Virus record (IMG/VR): IMGVR_UViG_3300046811_000044
Span: 1-28,499 of that record
Source of the DNA: a virus
DNA: 28,499 nt
Strand: one strand, 5' to 3'
Part shown: positions 2,529 to 24,526 of the stretch, one piece after another
Numbering within the stretch: the first letter of the stretch is position 1
Layout of the letters: every line of letters begins with the position of its first letter
Translations under genes and position numbers: made by a program
Notes under the pieces: model-generated
Seen by the model: only the letters and a program-made list of their open reading frames with translations
Databases searched by the model: none
What the model was told of the DNA's origin: nothing

Positions 2529-4430
2529 ATGGTTTATCAAAGACCAGGCGTATACATTAATACGTCGCTTAACCCATTAACTCCGGGTGCTTCTGCGCCT
2601 GGTCAATCAACCGCAGCATTCGTAGGAGTACATACTCAGGGTCCTACTACACCTACATTGGTGACAAGCTGGAATCAGTTCACCAATCTCTTTGGTGGAT
2701 TCGGTAACGGTCAGAATCTTTTGCCCTTCGCTATCTGGCAGTACTTTGCTAATAATGGTAATCAGTGTTATATAGTAAGAGCTGCTGCTACTGATGCCGT
2801 TGCGGCTAACGAGACTCTTAATGACCGAGAGGTCGGGGCAGGTGGAATCCTTCCTCCTACTGGGGTAACAGCTACTCCGGGTGGAACCACAACACCTTCC
2901 TACACATATGAGTACACCGTAACAGCAGTAAATGGTACTGGAGAGACCAATGGTGGGGTACCTATTACTGCCATTGCTAACCAGACACTTACCAACACCA
3001 ATAATGTAGTTATTAACTGGACTGCGGTAGTAGGTGCTACCAGTTATAATATCTACCGTCGTAACCTGACTACTGGTGGGGTAACAGCTATTCCTTTGAA
3101 GCTGAGTTCTGTAACTTCTCCAACTGTTACATTTACCGATAATGGTACCTTCACGCCGCTTGGTTCTATTCCTCTATTCAACACAACAGGTACTCCAGTT
3201 CCTATCCTGAAGTTTATTGCCAGTGCCGTAGGTACGTGGGGCAACCAGACTTATGTTGATATCACTGATAGCCCTTATGGTGGTGGAAGAGTAAATATTG
3301 TAGTTCGATACGGTGGAACTACTGACGCTTTCATTGTGGAAAGATTTGTAGATGTAACTATGAATCGTACGGATTCTAGATATCTGGTATCTATGATCAA
3401 CTCCACAGTTCTTGGTTCCAAGTATATTCGTGCTGTAGACCTGGGAACATACACAACATGGACAACAGCTCAGACACCGCAGACACAGAGTGCTGTAGCC
3501 CTTTCTGGAGGATCTGATGGAGTAGCTTCTCCTAGCCTACTGTCTGCTACACAGCAGCTTTCAAGTATTCAGGGAAACTTGGATATTAATCTTCCGGGTA
3601 TTTACAGTACAGCTACCCTTAATCCTATTCTGGCTTTCACAAATACCAAGTCGAATATGTTCGTAGTTATAGATACTCCTCCTGCAACTATCGGAGCAGA
3701 TGGTGTAACTCCTAGCGAGTCCGCAACAGCCAATAGTTACTACGCAATGGTTATCGGTAACACACAGATTACTCCTACAGCTCAGGCTGCTATCTACGGC
3801 CCTTGGCTACAGGTTACTGATCCTACTTCTACAGTTCCGGGTGCTACAAAGACTCTTCCTCCGGGTGGTGCCGTTTTGGGAATTTATTCTCAGACAGACG
3901 CTAAGGCTGGTGTACAAAAGGCCCCTGCTGGTGTAACCATTCCTCTGCAAAGAGTTGTCGGTGTTGAGCTAGCATTCCAGGACACAAATCTTGATACACT
4001 AAATACCAATGGTATTAATATCAATAGATTTATCTCCGGATATGGTTTCTGTGTCATGGGTACTCGTACCTTGCTTCCCACTCTTCCAAGTCGTTATGTC
4101 CCAATTCAGCGCACATTGATGAGTATTCAATTCAATTTGACTCAGCTTACTCAATTTGCTATCTTCGAAAATAATAATGGAGATCTGTGGTCCAGACTTT
4201 CTGCTGTAGTTAGACAGTACTTACAGGGAATCTGGCAGCAGGGAGTTCTTCAGGGGGATATTGCTGATCAAGCATTCTTTGTACAGTGTGATGCAGACAA
4301 TAACACAGCTACCACAATCGCTGCTGGCGAAGTCCATGTCAAGGTTGGTCTTGCTCTAAATACTCCTGCCGAGTTTGTTGTTATTGATATTAATCAAATG
4401 TCCAGCAACTCTACTACAGTTCTTCCATAA
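2529..4430 (+). CDS. Contractile tail sheath protein with inserted Fn3-like domain
   Basis: The sheath subunit surrounds the tube and contracts to drive it through the cell envelope. The 633-residue protein has the sheath hallmarks: the N-terminal PGVYI strand, QCYIVRAAA around residues 79-87, the G-x-WGN segment near residues 235-239, and a C-terminal handshake region ending AEFVVIDINQ. Between the RAAA strand and the WGN segment lies an extra stretch, about residues 109-221, that reads as a fibronectin type III-like fold: PPTGVTATPGG, YTYEYTVTAVNGTGET, then NWTAVVGATSYNIYR. Such a domain would sit on the outer surface. AGGAGA (2516-2521) precedes the ATG. It is followed eleven bases later by the tube gene, as expected. 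Sheath identity is secure; the insert is a fold-level call. Confidence 0.93.
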   Translation: MVYQRPGVYINTSLNPLTPGASAPGQSTAAFVGVHTQGPTTPTLVTSWNQFTNLFGGFGNGQNLLPFAIWQYFANNGNQCYIVRAAATDAVAANETLNDREVGAGGILPPTGVTATPGGTTTPSYTYEYTVTAVNGTGETNGGVPITAIANQTLTNTNNVVINWTAVVGATSYNIYRRNLTTGGVTAIPLKLSSVTSPTVTFTDNGTFTPLGSIPLFNTTGTPVPILKFIASAVGTWGNQTYVDITDSPYGGGRVNIVVRYGGTTDAFIVERFVDVTMNRTDSRYLVSMINSTVLGSKYIRAVDLGTYTTWTTAQTPQTQSAVALSGGSDGVASPSLLSATQQLSSIQGNLDINLPGIYSTATLNPILAFTNTKSNMFVVIDTPPATIGADGVTPSESATANSYYAMVIGNTQITPTAQAAIYGPWLQVTDPTSTVPGATKTLPPGGAVLGIYSQTDAKAGVQKAPAGVTIPLQRVVGVELAFQDTNLDTLNTNGININRFISGYGFCVMGTRTLLPTLPSRYVPIQRTLMSIQFNLTQLTQFAIFENNNGDLWSRLSAVVRQYLQGIWQQGVLQGDIADQAFFVQCDADNNTATTIAAGEVHVKVGLALNTPAEFVVIDINQMSSNSTTVLP

Positions 4431-4440
4431 GGAGTGAAAT

Positions 4441-5019
4441 ATGGCTACAACTCTTGACTCACCAATAGCCAAGGCTAAGCCTTCTATTGGTCATTTAGCG
4501 ACTGATCCATTAAGAAATTTCAAGTTCAATGTCAATATCATCCACCCTACTCTTCAGGGTTTTGCGACTATGGGATTTATGACAGTAAGTGGTTTAAATA
4601 TCACCACTGAAGTTATCCCATACCGTGAAGGTGGAATGAATACTACTACACAGAAGATGCCGGGCCAGTCAGACTTCAGTCCTATCACGCTAAGTCAGGG
4701 AGTTGCCGTTGGCGCAGGACCGATGTGGCAGTGGATGAAGCAATTATTTACAGTTCAGCAGGGAACAGGAACAGGAGCTCCTGGTACTGACTTCCGCGCA
4801 ACCGTGGACGTTATGGTGCTTGCTCACCCCGTAGTTTCTAGTCAGGTTCCGGTAAAGGCTGTCTACCGTATCTACAATGCTTGGCCAACTTCTATTGCCT
4901 TCTCTGATTTCGATGCTGGAGCCAATGCTGTTCTTATGCAGCAGATGAGCTTGGCTCACGAAGGATTCGACTTCAAGCTAGCAACGTCAATAGGATTAAG
5001 CGGCGTTTCGTTCAATTAG
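4441..5019 (+). CDS. Tail tube protein (T4 gp19 family)
   Basis: This 192-residue protein forms the rigid inner tube. The sequence follows the T4_gp19 family pattern: DPLRNFKFNVNI at the N-terminus, a FMTVSGLNITTEVIPYREGG strand and loop near residues 46-65, MPGQSDFSPITLSQGVAVG, then a WQWMKQLF helix around residues 96-103, and a C-terminal beta section. The length is normal for the family. AAGGAG precedes the start closely and the gene lies directly downstream of the sheath gene, the standard sheath-tube pairing that keeps their output matched. A 95-base gap follows with no strong promoter or terminator that I can see, containing only a 12-codon ORF at 5061. Confidence 0.93.
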   Translation: MATTLDSPIAKAKPSIGHLATDPLRNFKFNVNIIHPTLQGFATMGFMTVSGLNITTEVIPYREGGMNTTTQKMPGQSDFSPITLSQGVAVGAGPMWQWMKQLFTVQQGTGTGAPGTDFRATVDVMVLAHPVVSSQVPVKAVYRIYNAWPTSIAFSDFDAGANAVLMQQMSLAHEGFDFKLATSIGLSGVSFN

Positions 5020-5114: not shown

Positions 5115-5978
5115 GTGGAATTTCAAAAGCCTGAATATAGTATGTCTTTCGATGACTCTCCAGGTGAGGTCATTAAGGGTAATGATCAATCCCTTAATGA
5201 CCTTACTCAAAAGATTCTTAAGTCTACTAATCCTGCTCCTGTCATTGAAGATGTTCCTGATACTTATGTAAAGCTTCCGGCAGGATTGGTTTCCGGCGAC
5301 GAAGTTATTCAAAATGCAGAGGTAAGAGAGCTTACTGGTAAGCATGAAGAGCTACTGGCCAAGGCCAAGCTTTCCAATAATGCGGCCAAATATATTGACA
5401 CCCTACTTCAGTGTGGTGTTGTTTCCGTTGGAGAGGCACCAGCCACCAGTGCTCTGCTGGATACTATGCTTCAAGGAGATCTTGATGCTCTTATCATGGG
5501 AATCCGTAGAGCCACCTTTGGCGCTACCTTTGAAGTATTCAATGTAGCTTGTCCAACTTGTGAGGCCATGAACGACCTTGAGATGGATCTAACGGATATT
5601 CCTGTCAAGGAATTGGATGATCCTCTGGTTAGGGAATTTATCGTGGATCTTCGTAAGGGAAGAAAGGCCCGAGTACAGTTCCCGACTGGTGCTCTTCAAA
5701 AGGAATTATTTAAGAAGCAAATTGATATTACTGAGATGAATAGCGTTACGCTGGCAACTTGCGTACTTTCCTTCATTGACGCCAAGGGTAACGAGCGTCC
5801 GTGTAATGGTCTACTGGACGTACGAGATCTCGGGGTATCTGACCGTAGAACTCTACAGGAGTATATCTATACCAATCAGCCGGGACCAAGATACGACCAG
5901 GTAACTGCGCAGTGTCATTCCTGCGAAGGTGAGGTCCCTGTCCCTCTAACTGTGGGTATTCTGTTTCGGGAACTTTAA
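5115..5978 (+). CDS. Tail assembly chaperone / baseplate hub assembly protein (T4_baseplate family)
   Basis: The 287-residue product starts at GTG 5115 with GGAG (5103-5106) upstream. It matches the order of the T4 gp26-like T4_baseplate family: a LPAGLVSGDEV strand, a VRELTGKHEELLAKAK region, the LQGDLDALIMGIRRATFG helix, then CPTC (Cys146/Cys149). A second CHSC pair (Cys267/Cys270) near the C-terminus makes a likely zinc ribbon. In contractile phages and injection systems this gene sits between tube and tape measure and helps assembly. The last codons read CTG TTT CGG GAA CTT TAA. An ORF without a start codon follows in the +1 frame, so the chaperone is probably also made in a longer frameshifted form. 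Family call is good; the exact role is inferred. Confidence 0.82.
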   Translation: MEFQKPEYSMSFDDSPGEVIKGNDQSLNDLTQKILKSTNPAPVIEDVPDTYVKLPAGLVSGDEVIQNAEVRELTGKHEELLAKAKLSNNAAKYIDTLLQCGVVSVGEAPATSALLDTMLQGDLDALIMGIRRATFGATFEVFNVACPTCEAMNDLEMDLTDIPVKELDDPLVREFIVDLRKGRKARVQFPTGALQKELFKKQIDITEMNSVTLATCVLSFIDAKGNERPCNGLLDVRDLGVSDRRTLQEYIYTNQPGPRYDQVTAQCHSCEGEVPVPLTVGILFREL

Positions 5979-5979
5979 T
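5968..5979 (+). promoter_or_regulatory. Putative programmed +1 frameshift site (CTT TAA)
   Basis: At the chaperone's last sense codon, CTT (5973-5975) is followed by TAA. A tRNA reading CUU can slip one base onto UUU and continue at AAT 5977 in the frame that stays open to 6204. This is the same geometry as the CUU UGA shift in the bacterial prfB gene, including a G-rich element (GGGA, 5968-5971) directly upstream that could weakly pair with 16S rRNA. The downstream frame is closed by TAA at 5947, so any shift must occur in the roughly 30 bases before the stop. A -2 shift would give the same frame and is not excluded. Confidence 0.6.
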
Positions 5980-6204
5980 TACCAGAATCTTTATAAAGAC
6001 TACGAACAATTGGTAGACGCATATCATTGGCCTTTATCCGAAAGTAAGGAACTTACCTTCAGGGAGCGCCGACACTGGGTATCCAGATATTTGTATAAGC
6101 TGAACCAAGAGTACGAAAGAATGAATCAACTTAATAATCAAAACCAAACCACTATGAGATCCGTGGGACAGGGCGTTACTTTCAGTGGAATACCTTATAG
6201 GTAA
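5977..6204 (+). CDS. Frameshift-encoded C-terminal extension of the tail assembly chaperone
   Basis: Seventy-five codons remain open in the +1 frame after the chaperone stop. The first in-frame ATG is at 6121, after the conserved-looking part, and no ribosome site precedes the only early alternative start (TTG 6010), so independent translation is unlikely. The segment YKDYEQLVDAYHWPLSESKE followed by FRERRHWVSRYLYKL resembles the short HWP...ERRRW proteins found next to T4_baseplate genes in contractile injection systems (DUF6760-like). Its position directly upstream of the tape measure is where the T half of G/GT-type chaperones lies. The fusion product would be about 362 residues. Coding potential is clear; the expression mode is inference. 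Confidence 0.65.
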   Translation, partial: NYQNLYKDYEQLVDAYHWPLSESKELTFRERRHWVSRYLYKLNQEYERMNQLNNQNQTTMRSVGQGVTFSGIPYR

Positions 6205-6239: not shown

Positions 6240-9200
6240 GTGGCTGAAGCTAATATCGGAGCCAGCCGCTTGTTGGGGACCAATGGTCTCCAGCAGGCGG
6301 TTGATTCTTTAGAGAACCAAATTAAAAGATTATCCAATGACTTCTCCAGATTATCTACCAGCATAGGAAATATGTCGGGAACCACCAATAGATCCGCAGG
6401 TGGTTCTATGGCTGGTAATAGCTGGAATACAAATTCAAATAGAGGATACTATTCTTCCAATGGTGGGGGTGGTATTTTTACCGCCTACGCTACGTTTGGT
6501 AACGCTGGCAATAATAATCCCAATAGAAGACGTAATGGTGGTGGAGGAAACTTCAACACTGGGAGCACACTGAGTGGCGGCATTCCTAATGGTGGGGCTA
6601 GATTTTCCTCAGCTGTGGGTATGGGCGCTAGTGTTATGGCTGGCCTTACTGCCTACGGTAACAGAAATATGTCCTCAAATATGCAGATGGATATGGCCGC
6701 CAACTATGCTTCTCGTATGGGTGGTATCGGACCTGGTGGCTACGATCAATCACGTATTGCTGCACAGCGCGCTTTGTTCTCCAATAATTATCTTGGTCTA
6801 AATGTAAATGATATGGCCGCTGCTGGTTATATCAATACCTATACTTTTGGTAGGGCTGCGCAGAATAATGGCGGTGTTGATCCCGCTTATGTTCGACAGA
6901 TGTCACAAGTTCAGGGATTCGGATACAACAGTCCTACTCAAGGCGCTACTGGTGCAGCTACTGCCGCACAGGAATCGTATACAGCTAGATCCTTGTTAAT
7001 GAGTCGTGCTATGGGTATCGCACCAACCATGGGTGCCGGAGGGGTGCAGACTCCCATGGGTGACATTGCCCGTTCCATCATGTCCAGATCTTTGAATCCT
7101 GGACGTTCTTATACTCCCTCTAACATTGCGTCGGCTCTTGGCCAAGGTGGTGGACTATCTGTAAACCTTCAGTACATGGGTCAGCAGATGGGTTGGAGTC
7201 AGGGAACTATCCAAGAGTACAGAAATTACATGACTAACTTTGTTAACGCACAGTCCAAGGGAATGTCTGCGGGAACTTTTGATACTTTACTTACTAAGGC
7301 GCAGGCTGGTAATACTTCCGCACAGAATCAGCTAAAGTCTGTGGGTGTAGGTTCTACTATGTTCGAGACTCAGAGAAATCTGAATTCTACTCGTACCACT
7401 CGACAGGAAGATATTCTGGAAAGCCTTGCTCCCGCTTTCAACACAGCTACTGATGTGGTAAATAAGTTCAGTTCTGCTCTTACTAAGCTCCTACAAAATA
7501 CAGGTTTGGATAAAGCAATAGGAACCGGAGCCGGTTGGGGTAGTGCTATCTCTGGAGGGCTAGGAGGCTTCTCTGGCGGCCTTGGAGCTGCTGGTGGATT
7601 CATGACAGCTATGCGTCTATTCAACATGTCTGGGGGCCTTTCTGGAGGCTTGGGAGGACTATTCGGTAGGGGTGCTAGTGCTGCCGGAAATGCGGGTGGA
7701 TTACTTAATGCCACTCGTGGAGCCAACGGGGTTTATAACATTACTAATCTTGCCAATGGTGCTGGTGGAGCAAGTCTACTAGCCCGTGGTGGTCCTTATG
7801 CGGCAGCTGGTGCTGCTGTAGCAGGGGCAGGAGTATTGGGATGGAAGGGTGCAGTAAGCTCAGAGGCTAACAATGAAAATGTGTGGCTACAAGGAATGAG
7901 TACGGCCCTTAAGTACAATCCTGCTGATCCTTTAAGCGCAGCATACCGAGGAGTTGGGGGAGTTCGTAGAGCCTATGACAAGTTCATCACAGGAAAGAAC
8001 AAGGAAAGTTTCTGGAGTCTCCTTAATCCTTGGGGACAAGAGAAGAGAATGACCAACACAGATGGTCGATCCGGTGGAGGAGCTGCCTCTAATCCTGCGG
8101 GTGGTGGAGATTCCGGTAACTCTAATGGAGCTACTAATGGTTCTGGAGCTACTGATTCTCAGATTATCCAGTTTGCGGAATCCCAGTTGGGTGTTCCCTA
8201 TGTATGGGGAGGGACTACTCCCGGTAAGGGATTCGACTGTTCCGGATTGATCCAATGGGCATACGGTAAGGCTGGAATAAGTCTTCCTAGAACTTCTGAG
8301 GAACAGCAAGGTGTTGGTACAGAGGTCGGTCTTAATGCCGTACAGCCGGGGGATCTTCTATTCAAGGGAACCCCCGCTCACCACGTGGCTATGGCTATAG
8401 GTGGTGGAAAGATTATTGAAGCCCCACACACAGGATTAAACGTACGTATTAGATCCTTTAGTGCTGGGGAGTTTACCAACGCTAAGCGTGTTGTTGGTAA
8501 CGTAGGAAGTGCTGGATCTCTTCTCAATGGAAACACGGGTAATGCGGTAAGTAATACTCTGAGCTCCGCACAGTCAAGAAGTGGTGGTAATGCTGGAGAT
8601 CTTTCCGGTATCAGTGAGCGCGCAGTGGTTCTATCGGCCCTTTCCGGCTCTATTGGAAGTCTTCCCGCAACTGTTGGTGCCAAATCTACTGGAGCAACTA
8701 GCGGAACTTCCCAGCTAGGAACTACTCCAACTGGTTCTGGAGGAAATGATAAGAGTTCTCTGCAATCCTACGCTCGTCAGCTTCTTTCCAAGTACGGTTG
8801 GGGAGACCAATGGAATTCCTTTGATGCTCTAGTTATGTCCGAATCCGGATGGGATTACGAGGCTACTAATCCTACTTCTGGAGCTTATGGTATTCCGCAG
8901 TCTTTGCCCGGAAGTAAAATGTCATCCGCTGGCTCTGATTGGCGTACCAGTGGGGACACGCAGCTTCGTTGGATGATGGATTACATCAACGACAGATATC
9001 ACTCTCCCAATGCAGCTTGGTCTTTCCACCAGAAGAATAACTGGTATGCCTCCGGGGCCTGGAGTCTTGACCAGGATCAGACTGCTGAGGTTCACAAGGG
9101 AGAAATGATTCTCCCTGCCAAGCAAGCCGAGACCGTACGTAGTGCTATTGTTAATGCTATTACCAATAAGTCCGATAGTGGAACTGGTACGGGAATCACC

Positions 9201-9332
9201 ATTGGTTCTATCCAAGTTAATCTACCAGTAGGATATTCCGGAACAAGACAAGAAGCACAGCTAACCGGCAAGATGATTGCTACTGCTATTGAAGAAAATA
9301 CCCGTAAGAATGCTCTAAAGATTGGACAGTAA
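6240..9332 (+). CDS. Tape measure protein with NlpC/P60 peptidase and transglycosylase-like domains
   Basis: The GTG start has AGGAGA (6229-6234) upstream. The 1030-residue protein sets tail length and is ejected with the DNA. Residues 1-60 are helical, residues 60-640 are rich in Gly, Asn, Ala and Met with hydrophobic Gly/Ala stretches, as in many tape measures. Residues about 639-755 form an NlpC/P60 domain: PYVWGG, FDCSG with Cys667, HHVAMAIGGG with His715, and His730 as third residue. Residues about 845-965 look like a goose-type or soluble lytic transglycosylase: MSESGWDYEATNP with Glu868, then GAYGIPQSLPGSKM. HKGEMILPAKQAE near residue 955 is a common tape-measure tail motif. Both enzymes would open peptidoglycan during entry. 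It overlaps the next gene by one base. Confidence 0.9.
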   Translation: MAEANIGASRLLGTNGLQQAVDSLENQIKRLSNDFSRLSTSIGNMSGTTNRSAGGSMAGNSWNTNSNRGYYSSNGGGGIFTAYATFGNAGNNNPNRRRNGGGGNFNTGSTLSGGIPNGGARFSSAVGMGASVMAGLTAYGNRNMSSNMQMDMAANYASRMGGIGPGGYDQSRIAAQRALFSNNYLGLNVNDMAAAGYINTYTFGRAAQNNGGVDPAYVRQMSQVQGFGYNSPTQGATGAATAAQESYTARSLLMSRAMGIAPTMGAGGVQTPMGDIARSIMSRSLNPGRSYTPSNIASALGQGGGLSVNLQYMGQQMGWSQGTIQEYRNYMTNFVNAQSKGMSAGTFDTLLTKAQAGNTSAQNQLKSVGVGSTMFETQRNLNSTRTTRQEDILESLAPAFNTATDVVNKFSSALTKLLQNTGLDKAIGTGAGWGSAISGGLGGFSGGLGAAGGFMTAMRLFNMSGGLSGGLGGLFGRGASAAGNAGGLLNATRGANGVYNITNLANGAGGASLLARGGPYAAAGAAVAGAGVLGWKGAVSSEANNENVWLQGMSTALKYNPADPLSAAYRGVGGVRRAYDKFITGKNKESFWSLLNPWGQEKRMTNTDGRSGGGAASNPAGGGDSGNSNGATNGSGATDSQIIQFAESQLGVPYVWGGTTPGKGFDCSGLIQWAYGKAGISLPRTSEEQQGVGTEVGLNAVQPGDLLFKGTPAHHVAMAIGGGKIIEAPHTGLNVRIRSFSAGEFTNAKRVVGNVGSAGSLLNGNTGNAVSNTLSSAQSRSGGNAGDLSGISERAVVLSALSGSIGSLPATVGAKSTGATSGTSQLGTTPTGSGGNDKSSLQSYARQLLSKYGWGDQWNSFDALVMSESGWDYEATNPTSGAYGIPQSLPGSKMSSAGSDWRTSGDTQLRWMMDYINDRYHSPNAAWSFHQKNNWYASGAWSLDQDQTAEVHKGEMILPAKQAETVRSAIVNAITNKSDSGTGTGITIGSIQVNLPVGYSGTRQEAQLTGKMIATAIEENTRKNALKIGQ

Positions 9333-23518: not shown

Positions 23519-24192
23519 TGACCAAAATACTTGAGGGAATCGTTGGTTCAACAGCCTACGGACTGGCTACTGAGAATTCTGATATCGATAAGCTAGGAAT
23601 CTTTGTTATCCCTACTGCGGAATTCTCCAGACTAAATCCACCACAGGAAAAGGATCTGAGTCAGGTAGCCACAGAACCTGACGTAACGCTCCACGAGCTG
23701 GGTAAGTTCTGCCGGTTGGCACTGAAGGCCAACCCTACTGTTCTAGAGCTTCTATGGCTGCCTGACGACCTTCTAACGACCATGTCTGAGGAAGGGCGAC
23801 AGCTCCGGTCGCGGCGTAGTTACTTCCTGTCGTCCAAGCTTGTGCGGGACGCGTACATGGGCTATGCTACGTCTCAGTTCAAGAGACTGAGTGAGCGAGG
23901 TACTACCTTCAGTTCTGATACTAAGAACCGAACCGAGAAGCATGCACGTCATCTCTTGCGCTTGATGCACCAGGGCTATACACTCTACACCACGGGAGAT
24001 CTTCCGATTCGCTTGGAAGATCCTGAGCGTTACCATGAATTTGGTAAGGTAACTGCGGATTCCACGCGGCATGCGGAACAGACTATCGAGCAATATCAGA
24101 AAATGTTTGATAAGGCTGAGAGTTTTCTCCCACCAGAGCCTGGTATTCAGGCAGTAGATATTTGGCTACGATCTATCAGAAAGAAGTTCTAA
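23518..24192 (+). CDS. RlaP-like nucleotidyltransferase (pol-beta superfamily, RNA-repair associated)
   Basis: The start is ATG 23518, overlapping the previous TGA; an upstream in-frame start at 23500 lies inside the neighbour. The 224-residue protein opens with ILEGIVGSTAYGLATENSDI, followed by DKLGIFVIP: the Gly-Ser of pol-beta transferases (Gly10-Ser11) and the metal-binding Asp22/Asp24 pair. This GSxAYG...SDxD form is typical of PF10127, which contains the RNA-repair RlaP family. A helical C-terminal part follows with conserved-looking LELLWLP, KARHL-like KHARHLLRLMHQG. The enzyme probably adds a nucleotide to RNA ends or mends them. A T4-type kinase/phosphatase lies 1.7 kb downstream in the same operon, which supports RNA repair. 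Confidence 0.8.
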   Translation: MTKILEGIVGSTAYGLATENSDIDKLGIFVIPTAEFSRLNPPQEKDLSQVATEPDVTLHELGKFCRLALKANPTVLELLWLPDDLLTTMSEEGRQLRSRRSYFLSSKLVRDAYMGYATSQFKRLSERGTTFSSDTKNRTEKHARHLLRLMHQGYTLYTTGDLPIRLEDPERYHEFGKVTADSTRHAEQTIEQYQKMFDKAESFLPPEPGIQAVDIWLRSIRKKF

Positions 24193-24368
24193 TGCCTCAT
24201 AATACTGTTGACCCATTTGACGGTAGTTTTGTTTGGTTTGACACTTCAATTATTCATCTACCTTGCGGTACTACCGATGCAATAGATGACGAGTATGATG
24301 AGGGCGAAGCCATTGATTGGATTTATGATCACAGTCCGGAGTGCCCTGCTCTAGAAAAGAAGTTCTAA
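24192..24368 (+). CDS. His/Cys miniprotein A (tandem paralogue)
   Basis: The 58-residue product starts in TAATG with the previous gene. It carries H22-L-P-C25-G and, later, A-I-D-W43, then D-H47-S-P-E-C51-P. The two His and two Cys are spaced as a compact zinc site. The middle is very acidic (DAIDDEYDEGEAIDW). The next gene encodes a shorter relative with the same residues in the same order. Function unknown; small metal-binding proteins of this size are often inhibitors of host enzymes, but that is speculation. Confidence 0.68.
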   Translation: MPHNTVDPFDGSFVWFDTSIIHLPCGTTDAIDDEYDEGEAIDWIYDHSPECPALEKKF

Positions 24369-24370
24369 TG
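24356..24370 (+). repeat. 15-bp direct repeat at two gene junctions
   Basis: AAAGAAGTTCTAATG occurs at 24180-24194 and again at 24356-24370. In both places it encodes the Lys-Phe stop of one gene and the ATG of the next. It brackets miniprotein A exactly, as expected if the two miniproteins arose by tandem duplication including the junction. Confidence 0.75.
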
Positions 24371-24526
24371 GATATTGATTGGTCTGATTATTTTTTGAGC
24401 CGCGATAGCTACAGCCCTGTAGTTGGTCATTTTACTTGTGGGGAAGAGGATGAATGTTACCTTCTATCTCAAGCTATTATCTGGGCCCAGGAACACGATC
24501 CTATTTGTCCGAAGAAGGGGAGCTAA
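24368..24526 (+). CDS. His/Cys miniprotein B (tandem paralogue)
   Basis: The 52-residue product starts in TAATG overlap with miniprotein A. It has H21-F-T-C24-G, then A36-I-I-W39 and E-H43-D-P-I-C47-P, the same pattern as miniprotein A with a three-residue deletion between the halves. It has an extra Cys30 and a basic end (PKKGS) that also supplies the GGGGAG ribosome site of the next gene. Probable zinc binder, function unknown. An upstream in-frame start at 24341 lies inside miniprotein A and is rejected. Confidence 0.68.
   Translation: MDIDWSDYFLSRDSYSPVVGHFTCGEEDECYLLSQAIIWAQEHDPICPKKGS

Follow-up and report, generated by a model that had tools for sequence, protein, structure and literature searches.

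Do two overlapping reading frames in a phage tail gene cluster give two separate proteins, or one protein in a short and a fused form, and if the latter, where would the ribosome change frame? The question is raised by IMG/VR virus record IMGVR_UViG_3300046811_000044 (positions 1 to 28,499; this entire 28,499-nt stretch is termed the window), which falls into a group of phages akin to Streptomyces phage BRock, with GiJojo, LuckySocke, Alone3 and pSt2308 as further named relatives, and which appears to represent a Streptomyces-type phage with a contractile tail. The first frame, ORF1 (positions 5115-5978, plus strand), ends with CTG TTT CGG GAA CTT TAA, its stop codon being TAA at 5976-5978. 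The +1 frame is open from 5950 to 6204 and reads NYQNLYKDYEQLVDAYHW... past the ORF1 stop. An earlier note on this DNA had described the ORF1 end and the open +1 frame in the same way, and both are confirmed; it had further proposed an RF2-like +1 shift at CTT TAA (5973-5978, plus strand). We favor another site. With a probability of about 0.85, ORF1 and the second frame, ORF2, would constitute one gene for a G/GT-type tail assembly chaperone, read through a +1 slip of tRNA-Phe from UUU to UUC at positions 5964-5967, and the short form would end in the zero frame at CTT TAA.

The gene order in the window and in the named phages is tail sheath, tail tube, ORF1, ORF2 and tape measure. In the window, the genes for the tail sheath (2529-4430) and the tail tube (4441-5019; PF06841) precede ORF1, and a gene for a tape measure-like tail protein (6240-9332) follows ORF2, all on the plus strand. 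The tape measure-like protein contains an NlpC/P60 domain (Pfam, 3e-23) and a transglycosylase-like stretch (phrog_12661), possibly two wall-cutting domains. ORF1 starts with GTG, has GGAG upstream, and matches the T4_baseplate family (PF12322, 1.9e-8) as well as phrog_150; it is read here as the short ('G'-type) chaperone. Two CxxC pairs in ORF1 (CPTC and CHSC), whose cysteines are invariant or nearly so in the alignment of fused proteins, suggest a zinc-binding ribbon. Elsewhere in the window, two small overlapping ORFs (24162-24526) are alike, as judged by eye only, and may be a tandem duplicate.

A search of IMG/VR with the single ORF1 sequence retrieved no relatives, but queries with alignments did. 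Junctions were collected from the named phages, from IMG/VR loci (ORF1 and ORF2 profiles) and from bacterial genome contigs; the 125 readable junctions were reduced to 81 representatives below 90% nucleotide identity. In 80 representatives, ORF1 was long enough for clustering by protein identity, which gave 30 clusters below 70% and seven below 50%. Each of the 125 relatives whose junction could be read has ORF2 directly behind ORF1 and in the +1 frame, hence the frame change between ORF1 and ORF2 is not due to chance; the arrangement is kept down to about 35-40% protein identity. Two homologs on genome contigs do not fit: one (L160) has a different ORF1 end and no visible ORF2, and the other, a protein of a Pyrinomonadaceae MAG (L163, 2429-3343), appears to carry T4_baseplate and a DUF6760-like end in a single reading frame. 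The conservation across the relatives strongly supports a +1 programmed frameshift that would join a T4_baseplate-family chaperone to its +1-frame partner, and in this respect the proposal of the earlier note stands.

ORF2 could instead be made as a separate protein, through reinitiation or from a weak start within the gene, coupled to termination at the ORF1 stop. In GenBank, it is indeed given as a separate small hypothetical ORF in BRock, GiJojo, LuckySocke and Alone3 (it is omitted in pSt2308), and the window offers one ordinary start codon for the long ORF2, TTG at 6010. This TTG, however, lies within a conserved YEQLVD block, and the equivalent codon is CTG in LuckySocke, Alone3 and pSt2308; the conserved ORF2 residues begin directly after the ORF1 stop, upstream of TTG 6010, and the starts annotated in the published records cut into the conserved block. 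A start is not conserved among the relatives either: in 44 of the 81 representatives, ATG, GTG and TTG are all absent from the +1 overlap and from codons 1-8, which agrees with the view that ORF2 has no usable start. The open +1 overlap is as short as 17 nt among the representatives. Separate initiation would also leave two features of the ORF1 end unaccounted for, i.e. an invariant TTT_C and a constraint on the +1 frame ahead of the stop codon, and we consider it very improbable.

The first of these features is a TTT followed by C, two to four codons ahead of the ORF1 stop, which is found in 81/81 representatives (in the window, Phe TTT at 5964-5966 and C at 5967, plus strand). The next codon is CGN in 76 representatives (CGG in the window), CAG in three, CTC in one and CCG in one; the base after TTT is thus always C although the encoded residue varies. 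The Phe column at the site is TTT in 80/80 sequences, whereas the other Phe codons are TTT in 51% (188 TTT against 181 TTC). Among 49 conserved columns, no other is fixed for one codon, the runner-up reaching 81%; on the ORF1 tree, the third base at this site shows 0 changes, compared with 13 changes in the other conserved Phe column and 8-38 in the remaining ones. Elsewhere in ORF1, C follows an in-frame TTT in 6.1% of cases and a TTC in 23.8% (Fisher, 4e-7; given the relatedness of the sequences, which are not independent, P values are nominal). Slow decoding of CGN codons is not evident in these hosts, and no downstream RNA structure stood out from shuffled sequences when the window and two further loci (L036 and L001) were folded. 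A GTG GGN located 12 nt upstream of the TTT (window 5952-5957) is strongly kept in the 27 representatives of the window group, with GTG in 25/27 as compared to 18% of the Val codons elsewhere, and is a possible stimulator. The open-licence literature contained no report of a UUU_C site in these phages.

The second feature is visible in the 53 representatives that read TTT CGN NNN TRA. At the first base of the codon that precedes the stop, a third position when read in the +1 frame, variation is free; changes here are nonsynonymous in frame 0, save for C/T in Leu codons, and silent or nearly silent in the +1 frame. The third base, on which frame 0 places little constraint, is A in 50 of the 53, giving the codon TAT in the +1 frame, and the Ile codons at this position are ATA in 11 of 12 cases (10% elsewhere). 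A free first base together with a retained A argues for +1-frame reading upstream of the stop codon, and such selection ahead of the stop places the shift at TTT C.

From these comparisons, we infer that most ribosomes would terminate at TAA (5976-5978) to release the short form, and that some of them would slip by +1 while UUU (5964-5966) occupies the P site. In this step, tRNA-Phe (anticodon GAA), the one tRNA that reads both UUU and UUC and pairs better with UUC, would move from the former codon to the latter, and C5967 would be skipped; the shifted ribosomes would then continue in the +1 frame through ORF2 (5968-6204, plus strand; reading GNFNYQNLYKDYEQLVDAYHW..., with the stop at 6202-6204), which would yield a fused form of 362 aa (...VGILF-GNF-NYQNLYK...), presumably less frequent than the short form. 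For influenza PA-X (UCC_UUU_CGU), a slip of tRNA-Phe from UUU to the better-paired UUC has been argued as the mechanism (PMC3498833). For the window, a shift at UUU_C predicts the trans-frame peptide YDQVTAQCHSCEGEVPVPLTVGILFGNFNYQNLYK, and a shift at the stop codon would predict ELNYQNLYK. Given the invariant TTT_C and the constraint on the +1 frame ahead of TAA, the junction previously put forward, Asn-Tyr-Gln directly after Leu287, is probably wrong; ILF-GNF-NYQNLYK would be expected. If the analogy with lambda G/GT and P2 E/E+E' holds, coating of the tape measure protein would fall to the short form, and the fused form would bring in tail tube subunits.

The RF2-like alternative holds that the ribosome waits at TAA, that Leu-tRNA slips from CUU to UUU with the aid of a G tract, and that the output depends on release factor. 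It draws on genuine features of the window: CUU_UAA is able to re-pair as in prfB, a CGGG precedes CTT by 2 nt, and the stop codon is always near the join, a spacing that slippage at UUU_C neither needs nor explains. When the window is aligned with its relatives, however, the frame change is kept throughout and CTT TAA is not. Only two of the 81 representatives have CTT ahead of the stop, where 11 codons occur in all (CTA 25, CTC 21, ATA 11, GTA 9, TTA 5, CTG 3, CTT 2, ATC 2, and TTC, CCC and ATT one each), and CTA, ATA, GTA and the like re-pair poorly after +1 slippage. TAA, TAG and TGA are all used as the stop, and the G-rich tract that had been likened to the prfB geometry is not conserved, the CGGG being mostly CGC or CGT in the relatives; moreover, the +1 frame is under constraint already upstream of the stop. 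Judging from these alignments, we reject CTT TAA as a general shift site of the relatives and regard an RF2-like shift as very improbable, though some minor additional slippage at CUU_UAA could occur in the window. A sensing of release-factor level through the ratio of the two forms, as the earlier note had suggested, is also unlikely, because the prfB frameshift is missing in the 2,658 Actinomycetota genomes surveyed, and M. smegmatis frameshifts poorly at the prfB site (PMC12421855).

The frame of ORF2 could also be reached by transcriptional slippage or by a -2 shift, and these are the least probable of the explanations considered. Most relatives have just three consecutive T at the site (e.g. 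TTGTTTCG), and three T are too short for polymerase slippage. A -2 shift results in the same frame as a +1 shift and is used for Mu gpGT (PMC3498833), but the sequence at the site offers no good tRNA re-pairing by -2.

The assignment of the pair to the G/GT-type chaperones draws on ORF2 and on structure modeling. The relatives of ORF2 have W, E, R and W residues in common; 13 of 43 members match DUF6760 (best 8.8e-5) and 12 of 43 match Phage_P2_GpE (PF06528, best 1.9e-4), the matches seen in detail being below the curated cut-offs. A DUF6760 search of the record of the window gave no match, but neither did any control genome, and its outcome therefore carries no information. In a profile comparison (hhalign), ORF2 matched P2 E' and the -1-frame ORF2 of Acetobacter phage phiAP1 with a probability of 93.5. 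The phiAP1 gene (L171, 1366-2162) is annotated as tail assembly chaperone, and its second domain, located in the -1 frame (GGTTTTTTTATG run), matches the ORF2 profile. A model of the fused protein was built from the window fused protein together with the unchanged ORF1 and ORF2 rows, and had a mean pLDDT of 88; its join region was not relied on, since MAFFT placed the C-terminal part of the ORF1 rows over ORF2. The matches of the model in BFVD were T4-like baseplate hub assembly proteins. Its best PDB row was the HK97 tail assembly chaperone (2ob9; Z 5.7, 85 residues), a weak match that is suggestive only; a sequence search of the PDB gave no match, and Foldseek on the PDB gave nothing below E 0.001. 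On the probable likeness of ORF2 to P2 gpE'/DUF6760 and the matches of the structure model, the pair is read as a G/GT-type chaperone.

As in the G/GT chaperones of lambda (G/GT), P2 (E/E+E') and Mu, the two ORFs overlap and lie between tail tube and tape measure, the downstream domain has no conserved start of its own, and the partner domain would be added through a frameshift; P2 E/E+E', with gpE' as the probable counterpart of ORF2, is an established -1 pair. In contrast to these systems, which shift by -1 (Mu by -2), the shift here would be +1 at UUU_C, and the N-terminal part belongs to the T4_baseplate family. The candidate site is like the UUU_CGN sites of influenza PA-X and plant amalgaviruses in having UUU_C followed mostly by Arg CGN and in the predicted +1 direction, but it occurs in bacterial phages, CAG, CCG or CTC can take the place of CGN in the A site, a stop codon follows two to four codons later, and the shift is predicted from sequence comparison. 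Such UUU_CGN +1 sites have been cited for plant amalgaviruses and suggested for HF1-like haloviruses (PMC7230728). HF1 reads TTT CGC AGA TAG, and HSTV-2, for which the shift was judged very likely to be +1 (PMC5009743), reads TTT CGC AGA GAC GGG GGC GGC GAG TAG; thus, the stop codon moves, whereas the TTT CGC before the +1 partner stays. No relation was found between the halovirus ORF2 and that of the window group, hence the shared TTT CGC motif may be convergent. With prfB (RF2), the locus shares the +1 direction and, in the window, CTT followed by a stop codon; it differs in that CTT, stop type and G tract are not conserved, in that the window has TAA and not UGA, and in the host phylum, which lacks the prfB shift (PMC12421855). 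The tsh genes of Listeria phages PSA, A118 and A500 (CCC_UGA; PMC5009743) also represent a +1 shift in a phage tail gene beside a stop codon, but there in the major tail protein gene, at a Pro codon, and in a low-GC host.

A frameshifted tail chaperone is a known principle; the site and the direction are unusual, and are unannotated in the published relatives examined. If true, the slip at UUU_C would be a deeply conserved bacterial case of a class of P-site +1 slippage so far described mainly in eukaryotic viruses, and hosts that lack the prfB shift would provide an easy reporter setting for it. It would also link the T4_baseplate family to tail assembly chaperones and call for a correction of the Streptomyces phage records examined, which give two separate proteins or omit ORF2, and in which ORF1 is called a baseplate or hypothetical protein.

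More distant PF12322 genes show similar arrangements. In Bacillus phage SP-15 (L177, about 2200-2440), a T4_baseplate gene has a +1-frame partner, with TTT TTT CAC upstream of the stop, and in jumbo phage LR756508 a PF12322 gene has a +1 partner, with TTT CTA. The T4_baseplate gene of Acidovorax phage ACP17 (L176, about 2224-2393) ends with GAT TTT TTC GTA TAA and has a -1-frame partner; its T_TTT_TTC looks like a -1 slip site. The second domains of these three phages matched neither the ORF2 profile nor Pfam, and we take them as positional parallels only. The odds seem evenly balanced that +1 slippage at UUU_C is general among the contractile-tail chaperones of bacterial and archaeal viruses, across the seven clusters below 50% protein identity, with the T4_baseplate/gp26 family as the G part and a shift direction that has switched between lineages, e.g. 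to -1 in ACP17.
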